Assembly (NCBI GenBank): GCA_028532915.1
Contig: JAQQAI010000067.1
Location: forward strand, 1 to 33,887
DNA from: Sphaerochaetaceae bacterium
GTDB taxonomy: Bacteria; Spirochaetota; Spirochaetia; Sphaerochaetales; Sphaerochaetaceae
Length of the DNA: 33,887 nt
Direction of reading: 5' to 3'
A program made the translations under genes and the position numbers. Below, piece by piece: positions 14,934-33,887 of the stretch (position 1 is its first letter; each line of letters starts with the position of its first letter). Below the pieces are notes generated by a model that saw only the letters and a program-made list of their open reading frames with translations, made no database searches and was not told the origin of the DNA.

Positions 14934-15357
14934 GTGACCAGATTCTTTCTCACCCATTTACGAACAACCTGATTCTGTTTGAATGGGGCATGATGGATCC
15001 ATTCTGGCAGATATTCGTGCCGGAAACATAAAAAAAAGAAACCTTTTTAAAATAATTCAAAAAAGTTTGAACATTTTTCCGGTAGATGTCTGTGATAAGT
15101 AGCCCCTTTTCAGCCGTTTCATCTTCTCACATTTTCTTTCCCATTGTGCCACTTGTCTTGTGTCACGTTAGGACACCTCTACCTTCCAAAACCGTGTAAT
15201 GGTTCCAAATTTGTATAAAAACAGCCATATACCATGTCATATGACTCTCATTCTCTCTCATTTTTCCGATTTCCATCACAGTCTTCAAGAGATCGAAAAC
15301 TGCAATAGTTAGTTCATCTGTCACATCATAACTCCTTTTGTTGCAATAATTTACGTG
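14934..15357 (+). other. Non-coding region conserved upstream of the small exported protein gene
   Basis: No gene is seen. From about 15048 on, this sequence is homologous by eye to the region upstream of the related gene at 33075 (minus strand, 33445-33138). Shared blocks include TTGTCTTGTGTCAC (15153-15166) and TTCATCTGTC (15313-15322). These lie 160 nt apart here and 161 nt apart in the other copy. The 50 bases ending in the -35 box (15313-15362) align without gaps at about 76% identity. Neither copy has a conserved reading frame. It may be an extended regulatory region or a small RNA gene. Confidence 0.6.
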
Positions 15358-15386
15358 TTGACTTCTGATCAAGTCGGCAGTACTAT
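15358..15386 (+). promoter_or_regulatory. Promoter of the small exported protein gene, with a 5' hairpin
   Basis: TTGACT (15358-15363), 17 bp and TACTAT (15381-15386). The expected transcript starts near 15393 and opens with the perfect hairpin AAGCTC-ACTTAA-GAGCTT (15395-15412), a possible mRNA-stabilising element. The paralogue at 33075 has an equivalent TTGACA-N17-TACTAT. Confidence 0.75.
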
Positions 15387-15437
15387 CTGGTTACAAGCTC
15401 ACTTAAGAGCTTCAGATCAATGAAGGAGAAAACGGTA

Positions 15438-15686
15438 ATGAACAGCAAATTAATAAAATTCATAACAGCAGTTGTAGTCATCGCAGCTATCGCCGTTGGA
15501 TCCATCTCAGCTTCCAGAACAGTAAGCAGCAAGACGCTTCATATATATGCAACCATCCCTTCAAGAACTACGGTAGAAGTTTCTGATAACGGTCAAGTCT
15601 TCTTCACTTCCAACAATTCAGCGGCGGCAACAGATGTGATCCAGTATGAAGGTGATACCACAGTGCTCACAGTCGTCGCCAGATAA
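15438..15686 (+). CDS. Small exported protein, 'SASRTVSS' family, copy A
   Basis: I do not recognise the family. ATG 15438 (82 aa) is preferred over 15420 because AAGGAG (15423-15428) is 9 nt before it and it gives a normal signal peptide: MNSKLIKF, then a hydrophobic core, then 'SISA'. The mature part of about 57 residues starts SRTVSS and reads like a small beta-sandwich: alternating 'TLHIYATIP', 'TTVEVSDNG', 'QVFFTSNNS' and 'TTVLTVVAR'. It has no Cys. Two relatives lie at the right end of the window: one about 97% identical in DNA over the visible 228 bp, the other diverged. It has its own promoter and a strong terminator, so it is a single-gene unit, probably abundantly made. A surface or filament subunit is one guess; there is no direct evidence. 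Confidence 0.8.
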   Translation: MNSKLIKFITAVVVIAAIAVGSISASRTVSSKTLHIYATIPSRTTVEVSDNGQVFFTSNNSAAATDVIQYEGDTTVLTVVAR

Positions 15687-15711
15687 CTACATTAGCATTC
15701 TGATAGATAAG

Positions 15712-15741
15712 AGATCTGCTTTCACGGCGGATCTTTTTTTT
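15712..15741 (+). terminator. Rho-independent terminator of copy A
   Basis: AGATCTGC (15712-15719) pairs with GCGGATCT (15727-15734), with one wobble, followed by T8. The same hairpin follows copy B. Confidence 0.9.
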
Positions 15742-15847: not shown

Positions 15848-16180
15848 ATGGTCGAACTATTCAAGGCTCTCGCGGAGGAGAACCGACTCAGGATTCTATC
15901 ACTGTTATTGCAGCAGGACCTTTGCGTGTGTGAACTCGAACACTGTCTGGAACTCAAGCAGTCGAATATATCACGCCATCTGTCGGTACTGAAACGTTCA
16001 GGACTGGTAGAAAGTTACAAAGATCAACAGTGGGCATACTACAAGATCAGCAGATCCTTAACTGATGAGCATGAACAGCTGAGATCCTATCTCGATGAAA
16101 AGCTTAAAAAATTACCGACTTTTCAGGATGATATGGCGAGAATCGAGACGTACAGAGAACATGAGGTCTGCAGACACTGA
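15848..16180 (+). CDS. arsR: ArsR-family arsenite-responsive repressor
   Basis: A 110-aa winged-helix repressor that leaves DNA on binding As(III)/Sb(III). The metal site 'DLCVCELEHCLEL' (C26 and C28 in the alpha-3 helix) is the classic ArsR ELCVCDL motif. The recognition helix 'LKQSNISRHLSVLKRSGLV' is typical. Its start ATG 15848 has the SD GGGAGG about 7 nt upstream. It precedes acr3 by 75 bp in the same orientation, forming a two-gene resistance operon with a dyad operator at its promoter. There is no arsC or other ars gene in the window. Confidence 0.95.
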   Translation: MVELFKALAEENRLRILSLLLQQDLCVCELEHCLELKQSNISRHLSVLKRSGLVESYKDQQWAYYKISRSLTDEHEQLRSYLDEKLKKLPTFQDDMARIETYREHEVCRH

Positions 16181-16255
16181 TCGATTTGAAGCAGATGAGA
16201 ACAATCAGGTATGTGATGCATTTTACAATAATGAAATATCCAAGGAGAGAATATT

Positions 16256-17323
16256 ATGGGTGACAAGGAAAAGAGCAATATCAGTTTCTTTCAGAAATAT
16301 CTGACGGTGTGGGTAGCACTGTGCATGGTGGCAGGAGTCCTTATAGGACGGTACTTCCCACAGCTGCCGGCCTTTTTGAGCAGATTCGAATATGCGAATG
16401 TATCGATACCTATAGCTATTCTGATCTGGGTCATGATCTACCCGATGATGATGAAAGTCGATTTCCAGAGCATAAAAAATGTCGGAAAGAATCCTAAGGG
16501 TCTGTATCTCACCTGGGTCGTGAACTGGCTTATCAAACCATTCACGATGTACGCGATTGCCTCATTTTTCTTCTATGTAGTATTCAGAAACTTCATCACA
16601 CCCGATCTGGCAACCGAGTATCTCGCCGGTGCGGTACTTCTGGGAGCGGCCCCCTGTACGGCCATGGTATTTGTATGGAGTCATCTCACAAAAGGTAATC
16701 CTGCATATACGGTCATCCAGGTAGCGACCAATGATGTCATCATTCTCTTCGCATTCGTACCTATAGTGAAGTTCCTTCTGGGAGTAAGCAATGTGAGTGT
16801 TCCCTGGATGACTTTGATCCTGTCGGTGGTACTGTTTGTCGTTATCCCCCTTGCGGGTGGCATTCTGACTAGGATGTATGTTTCAAACAGAAAAGGCGTG
16901 ACTTATTTTGAAACACAGTTTCTTCCCCGATCCGACAATGCGACGATGGTTGGTCTTCTTCTGACTCTGATCCTGCTGTTCGCTTTTCAGGGGGAGGTGT
17001 TCCTCAACAATCCTCTGCATATCCTTCTCATCGCCGTACCTCTGATCATTCAGACGATCTTCATCTTCTCGATCTCCTATATCACCGGGAAAATGATCCA
17101 TCTTCCCCACGATATCGCGGCTCCCGCCGGGATGATCGGAGCTTCGAATTTCTTCGAACTCTCGGTGGCGGTCGCCATCGCAGTTTTCGGGACTACGAGT
17201 CCTGCAGCTGTAGCTACGGTCGTCGGAGTGCTGGTCGAGGTTCCTGTGATGCTCATGCTGGTGAGGATTGCAAACAGGACAAGAAAGCTGTTTCTCCCGA
17301 GAAAAGTGGGTGTTGTCTCATAG
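16256..17323 (+). CDS. acr3: Arsenite efflux permease, ACR3 family
   Basis: Inner-membrane arsenite/H+ exporter, 355 aa with ten hydrophobic segments. Family residues include 'VLLGAAPCTAMVFVWSHLT' with the essential Cys (C134) and 'ATNDVIILFAF', 'MIGASNFFELSVAVAIAVFG', and a Glu in 'VLVEVPVML' near the C-terminus. ATG 16256 has AAGGAG 8 nt upstream. It is cotranscribed with arsR. No ATPase subunit (arsA) is present, so efflux would be driven by the membrane potential. Confidence 0.96.
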   Translation: MGDKEKSNISFFQKYLTVWVALCMVAGVLIGRYFPQLPAFLSRFEYANVSIPIAILIWVMIYPMMMKVDFQSIKNVGKNPKGLYLTWVVNWLIKPFTMYAIASFFFYVVFRNFITPDLATEYLAGAVLLGAAPCTAMVFVWSHLTKGNPAYTVIQVATNDVIILFAFVPIVKFLLGVSNVSVPWMTLILSVVLFVVIPLAGGILTRMYVSNRKGVTYFETQFLPRSDNATMVGLLLTLILLFAFQGEVFLNNPLHILLIAVPLIIQTIFIFSISYITGKMIHLPHDIAAPAGMIGASNFFELSVAVAIAVFGTTSPAAVATVVGVLVEVPVMLMLVRIANRTRKLFLPRKVGVVS

Positions 17324-27507: not shown

Positions 27508-27579
27508 AGCGAGAGACGGGATTTGAACCCGCGACATCCACCTTGGCAAGGTGGAGCTCTACCACTGAGCTACTCTCGC
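27508..27579 (-). tRNA. tRNA-Gly (anticodon GCC), copy 1
   Basis: 72 nt with acceptor GCGAGAG/CTCTCGC, anticodon stem CCACC/GGTGG and loop TTGCCAA. CCA is not encoded. It differs from copy 2 (28508) at three positions, two of them a compensatory acceptor pair. Confidence 0.97.
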
Positions 27580-27660
27580 AGAATTTCTAATGAATAATAG
27601 CGATAAAAATAATGATGGTCAAGTATCCTTTTCTCATAAAATGGCAAGAAATCGGGCCGG

Positions 27661-28371
27661 TCAGTTTCCACCCAGATATTCGATGCACATTAGAGGATAG
27701 TTGGTGAATATACCGGCGACACCGAGGTCGAGAGTTCTCTGCAGCTGCTTTTCCGTATTGACCGTCCATGTGTTCACACCGATTCCATTTTCCAGGCATT
27801 CTTCGATCGTGTCTTCATCAATGCTCTCAAACTCAGGATGGAAATAGGTGAAGCCATACTTTGAGCAGAAGTTCCCTCCGAATCTAAGTCCCGGATTCGC
27901 CACAAGAGCTGCTGTTTCGACAGTCGGAGCCAGGCGCTGGACTTCCATCAGAGACATGTGATTGAATGAAGAGAGGATGACACTTTTTTCCAGACCGTAT
28001 CTTCCTATGATATCGAGAGTCTTCTGTTCGAGCCCTTTATAATAGATGACACTCGATTTGAGTTCTATGTTCGTCACTATATGTGTTTCAGCTGCCCATT
28101 CGCAGTATTCGTTGAAGGTAGGGACAGTTTCAAAATCATTTTTCGACGCATTCAGTCTTCTCAGTTCTTTGAGAGAATGATCAAGAACGAAACCCGAGCC
28201 GTCGGTGGTCCTGTCTACCTTTTCATCGTGGATGATAACCACTTCTCCGTCTTTTGTGAGCTGGACATCGAGTTCGATGCCATAGGAACCGGCTTCCTGT
28301 GCTTTTCTGAAGGCGGTCATAGTGTTCTCGGGGTAGTGGCCGCTGCTGCCTCTGTGTGCAAATATGTTCAT
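27661..28371 (-). CDS. ugpQ: Glycerophosphodiester phosphodiesterase (GDPD family, cytoplasmic UgpQ type)
   Basis: Hydrolyses glycerophosphodiesters from phospholipid turnover to glycerol 3-phosphate and an alcohol. The frame extends to 28482, but ATG 28371 gives 236 aa starting 'MNIFAHRGSSGHYPENT', exactly where the family begins, with AAGGA 7-8 nt upstream. Catalytic and metal residues are H6-R7, E15, E33, D35 ('GIELDVQLTKDG') and H48 ('IIHDEKVDRTT'); 'TNIELKS' supplies another Glu. No signal peptide, so cytoplasmic. It lies between two tRNA-Gly genes with its own weak promoter. Confidence 0.95.
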   Translation of the reverse strand: MNIFAHRGSSGHYPENTMTAFRKAQEAGSYGIELDVQLTKDGEVVIIHDEKVDRTTDGSGFVLDHSLKELRRLNASKNDFETVPTFNEYCEWAAETHIVTNIELKSSVIYYKGLEQKTLDIIGRYGLEKSVILSSFNHMSLMEVQRLAPTVETAALVANPGLRFGGNFCSKYGFTYFHPEFESIDEDTIEECLENGIGVNTWTVNTEKQLQRTLDLGVAGIFTNYPLMCIEYLGGN

Positions 28372-28402
28372 ACTTCGATCCTTGATACTATAGTATGTAC
28401 AC

Positions 28403-28430
28403 TCTATACCCGCAGACTCTCTCTGTCCAA
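28403..28430 (-). promoter_or_regulatory. Possible promoter of the glycerophosphodiesterase gene
   Basis: On the minus strand TTGGAC (28430-28425), 16 bp and TATAGA (28408-28403), about 32 bp before the start. Confidence 0.5.
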
Positions 28431-28469
28431 TATCAAACGATGATAAAAGTTTTAAAAGATTGTGAAGAT

Positions 28470-28501
28470 AAAAAGAAGACAACCGGGTTTATCCGGTTGT
28501 C
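28470..28501 (-). terminator. Terminator of the tRNA cluster
   Basis: GACAACCGG / CCGGTTGTC (28478-28501) forms a strong stem, followed on the minus strand by TTCTTTTT. It ends the five-tRNA transcript. Confidence 0.88.
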
Positions 28502-28507
28502 AAAAAG

Positions 28508-28579
28508 AGCGAAAGACGGGATTTGAACCCGCGACATCCACCTTGGCAAGGTGGAGCTCTACCGCTGAGCTACTTTCGC
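28508..28579 (-). tRNA. tRNA-Gly (anticodon GCC), copy 2
   Basis: 72 nt with acceptor GCGAAAG/CTTTCGC and loop TTGCCAA. It lies exactly 1000 bp from copy 1 and is the last gene of the five-tRNA cluster. Confidence 0.97.
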
Positions 28580-28587
28580 AAGTGTTG

Positions 28588-28668
28588 TGCGAGAGGAGGG
28601 ACTTGAACCCTCACACCAAAGGTACTAGATCCTAAGTCTAGCGTGTCTGCCAATTCCACCACTCTCGC
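28588..28668 (-). tRNA. tRNA-Leu (anticodon TAG)
   Basis: An 81-nt class II tRNA with acceptor GCGAGAG/CTCTCGC, anticodon stem CTAGA/TCTAG, loop CTTAGGA and a long variable arm. CCA is not encoded. Confidence 0.96.
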
Positions 28669-28686
28669 AAGTGGTCGTTTGAAATA

Positions 28687-28759
28687 TGAGCCGCAAAGGG
28701 TTCGAACCTTTGACCCGCAGATTAAGAGTCTGCTGCTCTACCAGCTGAGCTAGCGGCCC
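28687..28759 (-). tRNA. tRNA-Lys (anticodon CTT)
   Basis: 73 nt with acceptor GGGCCGC/GCGGCTC (one G-T), anticodon stem GCAGA/TCTGC, loop CTCTTAA and T loop TTCGAAC. Confidence 0.96.
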
Positions 28760-28773
28760 GTGTTTGTTTTAAG

Positions 28774-28847
<74 letters not shown>

Positions 28848-28868
28848 ATAAACACCTAAAAAGGTGAG

Positions 28869-28941
28869 GGTGGATGACGGGGCTCGAACCCGCAACAACA
28901 AGATCCACAATCTTGTGCTCTACCATTGAACTACATCCACC
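28869..28941 (-). tRNA. tRNA-His (anticodon GTG)
   Basis: GTGGATG/CATCCAC acceptor with the extra G at position -1 (28941) facing C73 (28869), the identity element of tRNA-His. Anticodon loop TTGTGGA. First gene of the tRNA cluster. Confidence 0.97.
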
Positions 28942-32052: not shown

Positions 32053-32760
32053 ATGGCACCAATCAGAACATCTTCACTTACAAATGTGAAAACCAGAGAA
32101 AATTCAATTTTGAAGAATGTATATGCCTGGATGAGTGCGGGACTTGCTTTGACCGCCGTGGTATCCTATACGGTCGCCTCGAGTGAGTCTTTGATGAGAA
32201 TGTTCTTTTCCAGTGCTTTCAGTTTCATGTTCGTGATCATTGCCCAGCTGGCACTGGTCATCTATCTGTCAGCACGGCTGGAGAAAATGTCCGCCATGAG
32301 TGCTGTTCTCTCATTTGCCGGATACTCGATTCTTACGGGAGTCTCGCTATCTCTCATAGTTCTGGCGTATACCCCGATCGTGTTATCGAGAGCATTTTTC
32401 ACCACCGCTCTTCTGTTCGGCGGTATGAGTTTCTACGGTATGGTGACAAAAAGGAATCTTGACGGTATCGGTCATTATCTGATCATGGGGTTGTGGGGGA
32501 TCATCATAGCTTCGATCATAAATATGATCTTTCAGAGCAGCGGTCTCTATTACATGGTCAGCTATCTCGGTGTGTTCATCTTTTTAGGTCTCACTGCCTG
32601 GGATACACAGAAGATAAAAAGAATGAACGATGCATACGGTTCCTCTATGGATGAGGATACCTATATCAAACTGTCGATCATCGGAGCACTTATGCTTTAT
32701 CTCGATTTCATCAACATCTTCCTTTTCCTTCTGAGAATATTTGGACGTTCTAATAGATGA
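32053..32760 (+). CDS. Bax inhibitor-1 / YccA family membrane protein
   Basis: Seven-helix BI-1/TMBIM family inner-membrane protein, 235 aa. Bacterial members act as pH-gated calcium leak channels or, as YccA, modulate FtsH proteolysis. After a hydrophilic N-terminus, 'SILKNVYAWMSAGLALTAVV' (TM1) is the family start. 'SLSLIVLAY' and 'TTALLFGGMSFYGMVTKRNL' follow. The last helices contain 'LGLTAWDTQKIKRM' and 'GALMLYLDFINIFLFLLRIF', with the two conserved Asp of the BI-1 di-aspartyl gate. ATG 32053 has GGAGG 7 nt upstream. It is divergent from the lipoprotein gene and ends in a strong terminator. Confidence 0.95.
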   Translation: MAPIRTSSLTNVKTRENSILKNVYAWMSAGLALTAVVSYTVASSESLMRMFFSSAFSFMFVIIAQLALVIYLSARLEKMSAMSAVLSFAGYSILTGVSLSLIVLAYTPIVLSRAFFTTALLFGGMSFYGMVTKRNLDGIGHYLIMGLWGIIIASIINMIFQSSGLYYMVSYLGVFIFLGLTAWDTQKIKRMNDAYGSSMDEDTYIKLSIIGALMLYLDFINIFLFLLRIFGRSNR

Positions 32761-32820: not shown

Positions 32821-33075
32821 TTACAGGGCGATAACGGATAATAAAGTAGTGCTGTCGGAGCGGGGTGATACGTTCAATGATGCCGAATATATGTTGGAAG
32901 TGAAGTCAACTTCGCCATCATCGGCTACTTCTATCATCGTTGCAGGAGGGATATATGCCCAGATATGAATCATCTGGCTGCTGACAGTCCTTGATGCAGA
33001 GAGAAGGCCCGTCGTTCCGAGAAGGATAATCGTAAGAGCCATGATGTTTCTGATAAGATGTGATCTTCTTCCCAT
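32821..33075 (-). CDS. Small exported protein, 'SASRTVSS' family, copy C (diverged)
   Basis: The start ATG 33075 is fixed by GGAGG 6-7 nt upstream; the frame runs on upstream but that part has no RBS. 84 aa: a basic start 'MGRRSHLIRN', a hydrophobic core, then 'GLLSASRTVSS'. The mature part parallels copy A position by position ('MIHIWAYIPPATMIEVADDG', 'EVDFTSNIYSAS', 'TTLLSVIAL'), with about half of residues identical by eye. The conserved parts are the junction, the 'IP..T..EV.D.G.V.FTSN' core and the hydrophobic C-terminal strand. Promoter TTGACA-N17-TACTAT and a long upstream region resemble those of copy A. Family and function unknown. Confidence 0.78.
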   Translation of the reverse strand: MGRRSHLIRNIMALTIILLGTTGLLSASRTVSSQMIHIWAYIPPATMIEVADDGEVDFTSNIYSASLNVSPRSDSTTLLSVIAL

Positions 33076-33108: not shown

Positions 33109-33137
33109 ATAGTACAATCGTCTTTTCGATATGTCAA
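33109..33137 (-). promoter_or_regulatory. Promoter of copy C
   Basis: On the minus strand TTGACA (33137-33132), 17 bp and TACTAT (33114-33109), with about 27 nt of leader before ATG 33075. The -10 box and spacing are the same as for copy A. Confidence 0.78.
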
Positions 33138-33445
33138 CTTCTAATTTATTGTGATAAAATGAATTAAGAGATGACAGATGAAATGAATTTTTATCATATG
33201 AAAGACTTTTAATAACAAGCATGGATGGACGGATATGAAGGAAAATGTCAATCCTATGACATGAAAGATATTCGAAATATTCATAGATTCGATGTTTCTC
33301 AATAAAATACTATCAATAAGTGAAAAAAAGTGACACAAGACAAACCGAACTTTTTAGCCCTTAAGAACAAAGCTGATTATACTGTACTATATGCAAACAT
33401 GTAACAAACATCTGCCATAAAAAAGTGAGAACTTTTTTTTTGTAT
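33138..33445 (-). other. Non-coding region homologous to the upstream region of copy A
   Basis: No gene is supportable. On the minus strand it carries the same ordered blocks as 15048-15357: a GGCAGATGTTTGT block after an AAAAAAGTT run, TTGTCTTGTGTCAC (33343-33330) and TTCATCTGTC (33182-33173). The spacing is nearly identical. Confidence 0.6.
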
Positions 33446-33659
33446 AGAAGTTGAAACATGCATATTAAAGAAAAAATCAGTAAATATTTGAGGAAAGTCC
33501 TCATATTACCCTACCTGAGATACAGAAAGAATGTCGTAACTTGTCAGAAGGACGATCCACTGCCTGCACCTTTCTTTACATGCAACGATAGTGTTCCTGT
33601 AATAGGTGAGAGAACACTGCAGATTCATTTCTATATTCCATCGAAATTGGAGCTGCATG
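33446..33659. other. Gap between the copy C upstream region and the copy B terminator
   Basis: An open frame on the plus strand starts at 33458 but has no Shine-Dalgarno and runs antisense into copy B, so I do not call it. One stretch of it (about 33613-33651) reads 'RTLQIHFYIPSKLEL', faintly like the 'KTLHIYATIPSRTTVEV' of copy A, and might be a decayed relative in opposite orientation. Nothing else is recognisable. Confidence 0.35.
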
Positions 33660-33660
33660 A

Positions 33661-33688
33661 AAAAAAGATCCGCGGTGAAAGCGGATCT
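33661..33688 (-). terminator. Rho-independent terminator of copy B
   Basis: On the minus strand AGATCCGC (33688-33681) and GCGGATCT (33673-33666) form a perfect stem followed by T6. It is nearly identical to the copy A terminator. Confidence 0.9.
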
Positions 33689-33713
33689 CTTACCTATCAG
33701 AATGCTAATCTAG

Positions 33714-33887
33714 TTATCTGGCGACGACTGAGAGCACTGTGGTATCACCTTCAGATTGGATCACATCTGTTGCCGCCGCTGAATTGTTGGAAGTGAAGAA
33801 GACTTGACCGTTATCAGAAACTTCTACCGTAGTTCTTGAAGGGATGGTTGCATATATATGAAGCGTCTTGCTGCTTACTGTTCTGGA
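33714..33887 (-). CDS. Small exported protein, 'SASRTVSS' family, copy B (5' end beyond window)
   Basis: Codons for the mature part only are visible, from Ser-Arg-Thr-Val-Ser-Ser at the window edge to TAA at 33714, 57 residues. It differs from copy A at two residues (Tyr to Ser in 'VIQSEGDTT', Thr to Ser in 'VLSVVAR'). At DNA level about seven mismatches fall in 228 bp, including the 3' untranslated region and terminator, and the identity stops right after the terminator. This points to recent duplication or gene conversion. The signal peptide and promoter are outside the window. Confidence 0.8.
   Translation of the reverse strand, partial: SRTVSSKTLHIYATIPSRTTVEVSDNGQVFFTSNNSAAATDVIQSEGDTTVLSVVAR

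Follow-up and report, generated by a model that had tools for sequence, protein, structure and literature searches.

The small exported proteins encoded at three sites in this stretch of DNA belong to a family of spirochaetal proteins whose co-regulation with a chaperone-usher operon is well supported. Our preferred explanation, to which we give a probability of roughly 0.55, is that they are short, beta-rich, Sec-exported proteins in the regulon of a Sphaerochaetaceae-type chaperone-usher surface-fibre system, where they would act as a minimal orphan subunit (or as a cap or adaptor). What we observe is that the small genes have operator-type boxes in common with a PapD-type chaperone/usher-like operon and that the two co-occur in genomes. 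Because the operators are common to both, the small proteins are probably unusually small fibre building blocks or accessories, and we infer from this the more specific role of fibre subunit.

The window, meaning the whole 33,887-nucleotide stretch analyzed, corresponds to contig C67 in a draft genome of 2.64 Mb (Table 1). An earlier interpretation made without database searches (the sequence-only reading) had placed three copies of the family in it. Copy A is real and lies on the plus strand, with a second in-frame ATG at 15420. The stretches assigned to copies B and C, however, have no translation on the plus strand; both genes lie on the minus strand. Copy B is 46-47% identical to copy A. 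Copy C is indeed a family gene, but only its 3' part is present because the contig ends inside it, and the 57 residues that remain are 96% identical to copy A. Two other contigs of this genome begin within family units: C33 with the 3' part of a fourth copy, and C34 inside the upstream half of another unit, which adds a further 5' part. Since family units lie at the end of C67 and at the starts of C33 and C34, we conclude that the assembly broke inside the repeat. The SASRTVSS junction and the IP..T..EV and FTSN patterns are present as claimed. A plus-strand open reading frame (33458-33796) contains VIGERTLQIHFYIPSKLELHEK, which resembles the family core; it is preceded by a degenerate box, AACATCTGCCATA, and extends into the copy C terminator. 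It is probably a decayed further member of the family.

Table 1. Features of the small-gene units and of the chaperone/usher-like operon. Positions refer to the window unless a locus is named.
Feature	Position	Strand	Remarks
Whole dispersed repeat unit, copy A	15043-15741	+	~390 bp regulatory region, ORF, terminator
Operator-like box 1, copy A	15156-15165	-	TGACACAAGA; 79 bp from box 2
Operator-like box 2, copy A	15235-15244	+	TGTCATATGA; 79 bp from box 3
Operator-like box 3 (proximal), copy A	15314-15323	-	TGACAGATGA, 2 mismatches; ACATNTGWCA class in relatives
Conserved proximal element, copy A	15314-15363	+	Box 3, AT-rich UP-like stretch, -35; pseudo-palindromic; model R1 54.2 bits
Promoter, copy A	15358-15386	+	-35 TTGACT 15358-15363, -10 TACTAT 15381-15386, 17-bp spacer
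Copy A	15438-15686	+	82 aa; family profile E 1.5e-27; predicted signal peptide ~residues 1-25, mature part ~57 residues
Intrinsic-type terminator, copy A	15712-15741	+	From sequence
Bax1-I (BI-1/YccA-type) gene	32053-32760	+	PF01027 E 8e-58; syntenic marker of copy B, outside the system
Copy B	32821-33075	-	84 aa; adjoins Bax1-I gene, convergent
Conserved proximal promoter element, copy B	33132-33181	-	49.0 bits; -35 33132-33137, -10 33109-33114
Operator-like box 2, copy B	33252-33261	-	TGTCATAGGA; 80 bp from proximal box
Operator-like box 1, copy B	33331-33340	+	TGACACAAGA; 79 bp from box 2
Terminator, copy C	33661-33688	-	Nearly the same as copy A terminator
Copy C	33714-33887	-	3' part only, last 57 codons, cut by contig end
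Usher-like protein, ~1100 aa	L182:4934-8293 (contig C96)	-	No Pfam match for this protein
PapD-type chaperone	L182:8316-9158 (contig C96)		PapD_N 29.2-29.8 bits vs cut-off 23, E 1e-6

Profile searches found family members in 51 of 139 Sphaerochaetaceae-level genomes (E-values to 1e-30), with up to four loci per genome, and a scan of the genome contigs added just four loci. The loci that carry names lie in one Sphaerochaeta MAG and in unclassified Spirochaetales MAGs. Where dN/dS could be computed for pairs of small genes, it ranged from 0.02 to 0.35. The family is real and stands far above chance. Its consensus in relatives reads (S)RVVSSxTLxIYAYIPERTxV...G...F.SN...LSVxAR, with LSVxAR forming the C-terminal strand. 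The aligned members have a basic N-terminus, a hydrophobic stretch and an A-x-A-like site, and inspection of these features, together with the helix at residues 3-24 of the AlphaFold2 model, predicts a Sec signal peptide.

The idea of an undescribed, exported-looking family was thus borne out, as no curated family or solved structure matched. Single proteins and profiles gave no significant match in Pfam, NCBIfam, PHROG or PDB sequences, so that the profile search proposed by the sequence-only reading recovered no characterized family there. The monomer structure prediction that it also proposed gave two AlphaFold2 models with a signal-peptide helix and four strands (44-48, 54-58, 63-70 and 74-81 in copy A), low pTM values (0.42 and 0.49) and no fold match. 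Both models leave the most conserved segment, the N-terminal strand motif, unpaired. Foldseek found no match to either model at E under 1, and a second structural look with VIA returned one row with a Z of 2.1, a shared arrangement at best.

The evidence for co-regulation begins with the dedicated regulatory region of ~390 bp that lies upstream of the small genes and whose layout is conserved across relatives. Allowing one mismatch, 21 upstream regions contain 80 TGWCAYAWGT boxes against 6.8 expected. The distal and proximal boxes point towards each other, and the genomes form two groups according to the distance between them, 79-80 bp or 89-92 bp. Often there is a third box as well, separated from the proximal one by 166-168 or 176-177 bp. 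In copies A and B, three boxes follow one another in steps of 79-80 bp. The two spacing classes are about one helical turn apart, as would be expected if bound proteins contact each other along the same side of the helix or through a DNA loop. A model of the proximal element (R1) matches in the window's genome solely upstream of family genes. Because the box spacing does not fit the 11-bp repeats of Pho boxes, we dropped a PhoB-type reading. Of the strong promoters and terminators proposed from the sequence, -35 and -10 elements and an intrinsic-type terminator are visible; the 5' hairpin of copy A is also visible, but it is kept only in near-identical copies. The further claim, that each gene is regulated separately and lacks an obvious partner, is contradicted by boxes in common with the chaperone-usher operon and with clusters of pilin-like genes.

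These boxes recur, joined to the -35 element, at the chaperone/usher-like operon, at clusters encoding secreted pilin-like proteins of 170-210 aa and at a locus that encodes a pair of FadR-type GntR regulators. In genus g12, a palindromic form of the box (ACTTATGWCATAAGT) lies upstream of clusters encoding secreted proteins of ~185-290 aa. The fused sequence TTGACAYAAGT has five sites in the window's genome, and four of them fall at loci of the system: the chaperone promoter on C96, two positions on C23 and one on C50, which encodes a further four secreted pilin-like proteins accompanied by boxes. We take the fifth, inside a gene on C3, as chance. The C23 locus encodes a pilin-like secreted protein, the two regulators, an ABC ATPase and an FMN-reductase-like protein, and is conserved in four genomes (G001, G007, G019 and G034); its boxes flank the regulators in the intergenic gaps and also occur past the final gene. 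Both regulators combine a GntR helix-turn-helix domain (PF00392, E 1e-17 and 2e-15) with an FCD domain (PF07729, E 7e-16 and 9e-14). Because boxes occupy the intergenic gaps of this conserved locus, the two GntR proteins are the best candidates for regulators that bind the TGWCAYAWGT boxes.

In the window's genome the chaperone-usher operon is represented by a PapD-type chaperone and usher-like pair on contig C96. The chaperone scores above the curated PapD_N cut-off. The case for the usher is weaker: two to three relatives of the usher-like protein reach PF00577, but below its cut-off (24.9-25.8 bits versus 27.1). Over 383 columns the usher-like profile aligns colinearly with the E. coli ushers FimD, SfmD and YraJ, and unrelated E. 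coli control proteins gave no alignment to it. Genus g12 has the same order: the gene for a PapD-type chaperone precedes that for a 1105-aa usher-like protein, and the palindromic box lies upstream. At their N-terminus, the usher-like protein of L182 and its orthologues in L183-L190 have a hydrophobic anchor and then an acidic/proline-rich stretch of ~100-150 residues, which is unusual for ushers; these proteins are possibly anchored in the inner membrane. In several genomes V-type ATPase-like genes follow the pair (L182-L188), with no subunit gene between.

A pair of boxes lies upstream of the chaperone gene in G000, G001, G002, G003, G005, G007, G019 and G034, that is, in every genome of the window's clade with intact upstream DNA; G017, whose contig ends there, has one box. 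The paired boxes are mostly 106-111 bp apart, and the inner one is fused to the -35 element as TTGACAYAAGT. The strict box pattern occurs in these chaperone loci solely directly upstream of the chaperone gene, and with one mismatch allowed the box density is 4.8/kb there versus 0.2/kb in the rest of the loci. The 350 bp next to the chaperone gene showed no clear box in genus g3 and in some of g12. A single chaperone copy is detected by its profile in most genomes of the family (105 of 139): 50 of the 51 that have the small gene also have the chaperone, versus 55 of the 88 that lack the small gene (Fisher p 3e-7, with phylogeny ignored). Since the chaperone is found in 105 genomes and the small gene in 51, the system exists without the small gene in many of them. 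In none of the loci read does the small gene lie inside the chaperone-usher operon.

In all 24 aligned small proteins the first strand of the mature part follows the pattern hydrophobic-x-hydrophobic-x-small-x-I/V, and a matching motif occurs at the same place in most of the long secreted proteins that are co-regulated with them; the pattern is a loose one. Alternating hydrophobic residues of this kind are typical of donor strands in chaperone-usher subunits, and from this pattern we predict an N-terminal donor-strand segment in the small protein. In hhalign, the small proteins reached 77.8% over 33 columns with one class of spirochaetal secreted proteins, under 4% (no profile match) with the co-regulated pilin-like groups of the window's clade and 0.5% with E. 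coli pilins. Much of an apparent homology of full-length profiles to spirochaetal secreted proteins of 165-225 aa derived from the signal peptide; when mature parts alone are compared, one group of secreted proteins is still suggestive, whereas the co-regulated pilin-like groups are not. These profile comparisons are not proof of common descent between small proteins and pilins. Because no pilin homology was detected, we class the small protein as working like a pilin rather than as a member of that family: we propose that it works with the fibre, probably as part of it, and we do not claim it as a proven pilin.

Co-regulation and co-occurrence with the chaperone-usher operon would also fit a protein of the same regulon that is made with the fibre and is no subunit, such as a periplasmic or surface accessory acting in assembly, as an usher plug or cap, or as a sensor of assembly. 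The small protein is too short for a full Ig-like pilin, and it has no profile match to the long pilin-like proteins with which it is co-regulated in the window's clade; its ~57 residues, far below a normal pilin domain, and the missing fold match count against our own explanation. On the other hand, small and long proteins have the N-terminal strand motif in common, and several copies with strong promoters fit a bulk product better. We therefore consider an accessory of this kind possible, if rather unlikely.

The sequence-only reading had left two options, a small secreted or surface-polymerising subunit and a secreted effector. The operators in common with the PapD operon and the pilin-like clusters favor the surface-fibre option, and we found no sign of an effector. 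An effector, toxin or peptide signal with an independent function might well be small, exported, dispersed and present in several copies per genome, but this account is very unlikely: its genes would hardly be expected to have operators in common with a fibre-assembly operon, no toxin or peptide family matched, and selection is strongly purifying rather than diversifying.

The small genes lie in dispersed units that appear to evolve in concert. In the window's genome, 391 bp of the copy A unit are 98% identical to the start of contig C34, and 228 bp are 97% identical to copy C. The units of Sphaerochaeta genomes measure 667-704 bp and have equivalent borders. G024 has two copies 295 kb apart that are 98.7% identical over 677 bp, while syntenic orthologous regions of G024 and its sister genome G126 are ~80% identical; similar near-identical blocks occur in G004 and G140. 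Both positions are common to G024 and G126, which is most simply read as gene conversion following an old duplication. The Bax1-I gene beside copy B also lies near the small gene in G017 and G019, with one nitroreductase-like gene between. Since this neighborhood recurs in G017 and G019, the position of copy B is ancestral in that clade. As clues to function the neighbors (Bax1-I, nitroreductase-like and PHP-like genes) were set aside, as they show synteny and do not explain function. Copy A lies between a histone-deacetylase-domain protein (PF00850, 13623-14933, plus strand) directly upstream of its unit and, directly downstream, an ArsR-type regulator followed by an SBF-family transporter (15848-17323, plus strand), likely an arsenic-type resistance pair. 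The window also contains six minus-strand tRNA genes (27508-28940), five of them clustered at 28508-28940.

Sharply bordered units that are near-identical within several genomes could be taken for a small transposable or recombining element of about 700 bp, with the boxes as recombinase sites. We regard this as highly improbable, since no terminal inverted repeats were seen at the unit borders examined, the copies are syntenic across species, the same boxes control non-repeated operons and the coding part is under purifying selection; moreover, the borders fall at the end of the functional unit, as gene conversion would leave them. In genus g3 of Sphaerochaeta, the 3'-UTR contains an element, GTCCGGACAGNCAAGCTTGC, which has two adjacent 8-bp palindromes and is nearly invariant (L138, L139 and other units of the genus); it is found only behind the small genes and nowhere else in those genomes. 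This element is almost unchanged where the protein is only ~53% identical, but a transcript acting mainly as RNA, with the reading frame secondary, is extremely improbable given the dN/dS values, the absence of GTCCGGACAGNCAAGCTTGC from the window's genome and the lack of any Rfam match.

Returning to the chaperone-usher explanation, we can sketch how such a system might work. The two FadR-type GntR proteins would bind the boxes, and the helically phased sites would permit loops that switch the strong promoters together. The ~57-residue mature protein would be a minimal orphan fibre subunit or a cap/adaptor, held by the chaperone and exported by the usher, and its conserved first strand, L-x-I-x-A-x-I-P with alternating hydrophobics, could be handed on as a donor strand. 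Dispersed copies that are near-identical within a genome would be expected for a product needed in quantity, and an orphan component predicted to be highly expressed is our best reading. The full picture remains tentative and, taken whole, falls somewhat short of even odds: a spirochaetal chaperone-usher system under paired FadR-type GntR control through phased, probably looping operators, with a fibre polymerised from or decorated with a ~57-residue subunit encoded by dispersed, concertedly evolving single-gene cassettes. If true, it would extend the range of the chaperone-usher pathway to another phylum, and a subunit this short would probe the minimum size of a donor-strand-exchanged building block. 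Sphaerochaeta-type spirochaetes are not known to have flagella, and their interactions with surfaces and partners are poorly understood. With the boxes, the complete set of regulon members can be listed for any genome of the family.

The open-access literature that we searched yielded no report of a chaperone-usher system in Sphaerochaeta or of spirochaetal ushers, and within that literature the system has apparently not been reported in spirochaetes before. The archaic chaperone-usher family is recorded from Proteobacteria, Cyanobacteria and Deinococcus-Thermus, with spirochaetes not among them (PMC4654587). Like chaperone-usher pilus subunits such as FimA, CsuA/B and EcpA, the small protein is Sec-exported (as predicted) and beta-rich, has an alternating-hydrophobic N-terminal strand and shares its regulation with a PapD-type chaperone and an usher-like protein. 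Unlike those subunits of ~150 residues, it has a mature part of ~57 residues with no sequence homology detected to them, and its genes occur as several dispersed copies away from the chaperone and usher. Among the archaic and alternative systems (Csu, ECP), the spirochaetal chaperone profile aligns with EcpB (hhalign 56.9%) and passes PapD_N, whereas the usher-like protein differs from theirs in starting with a hydrophobic anchor and an acidic/proline-rich stretch. The C23 proteins resemble FadR-type GntR regulators in joining GntR and FCD domains, and the g12 box is palindromic. Regulators of this type typically control metabolism, whereas those of C23 are tied by their location and their boxes to a surface-fibre regulon.
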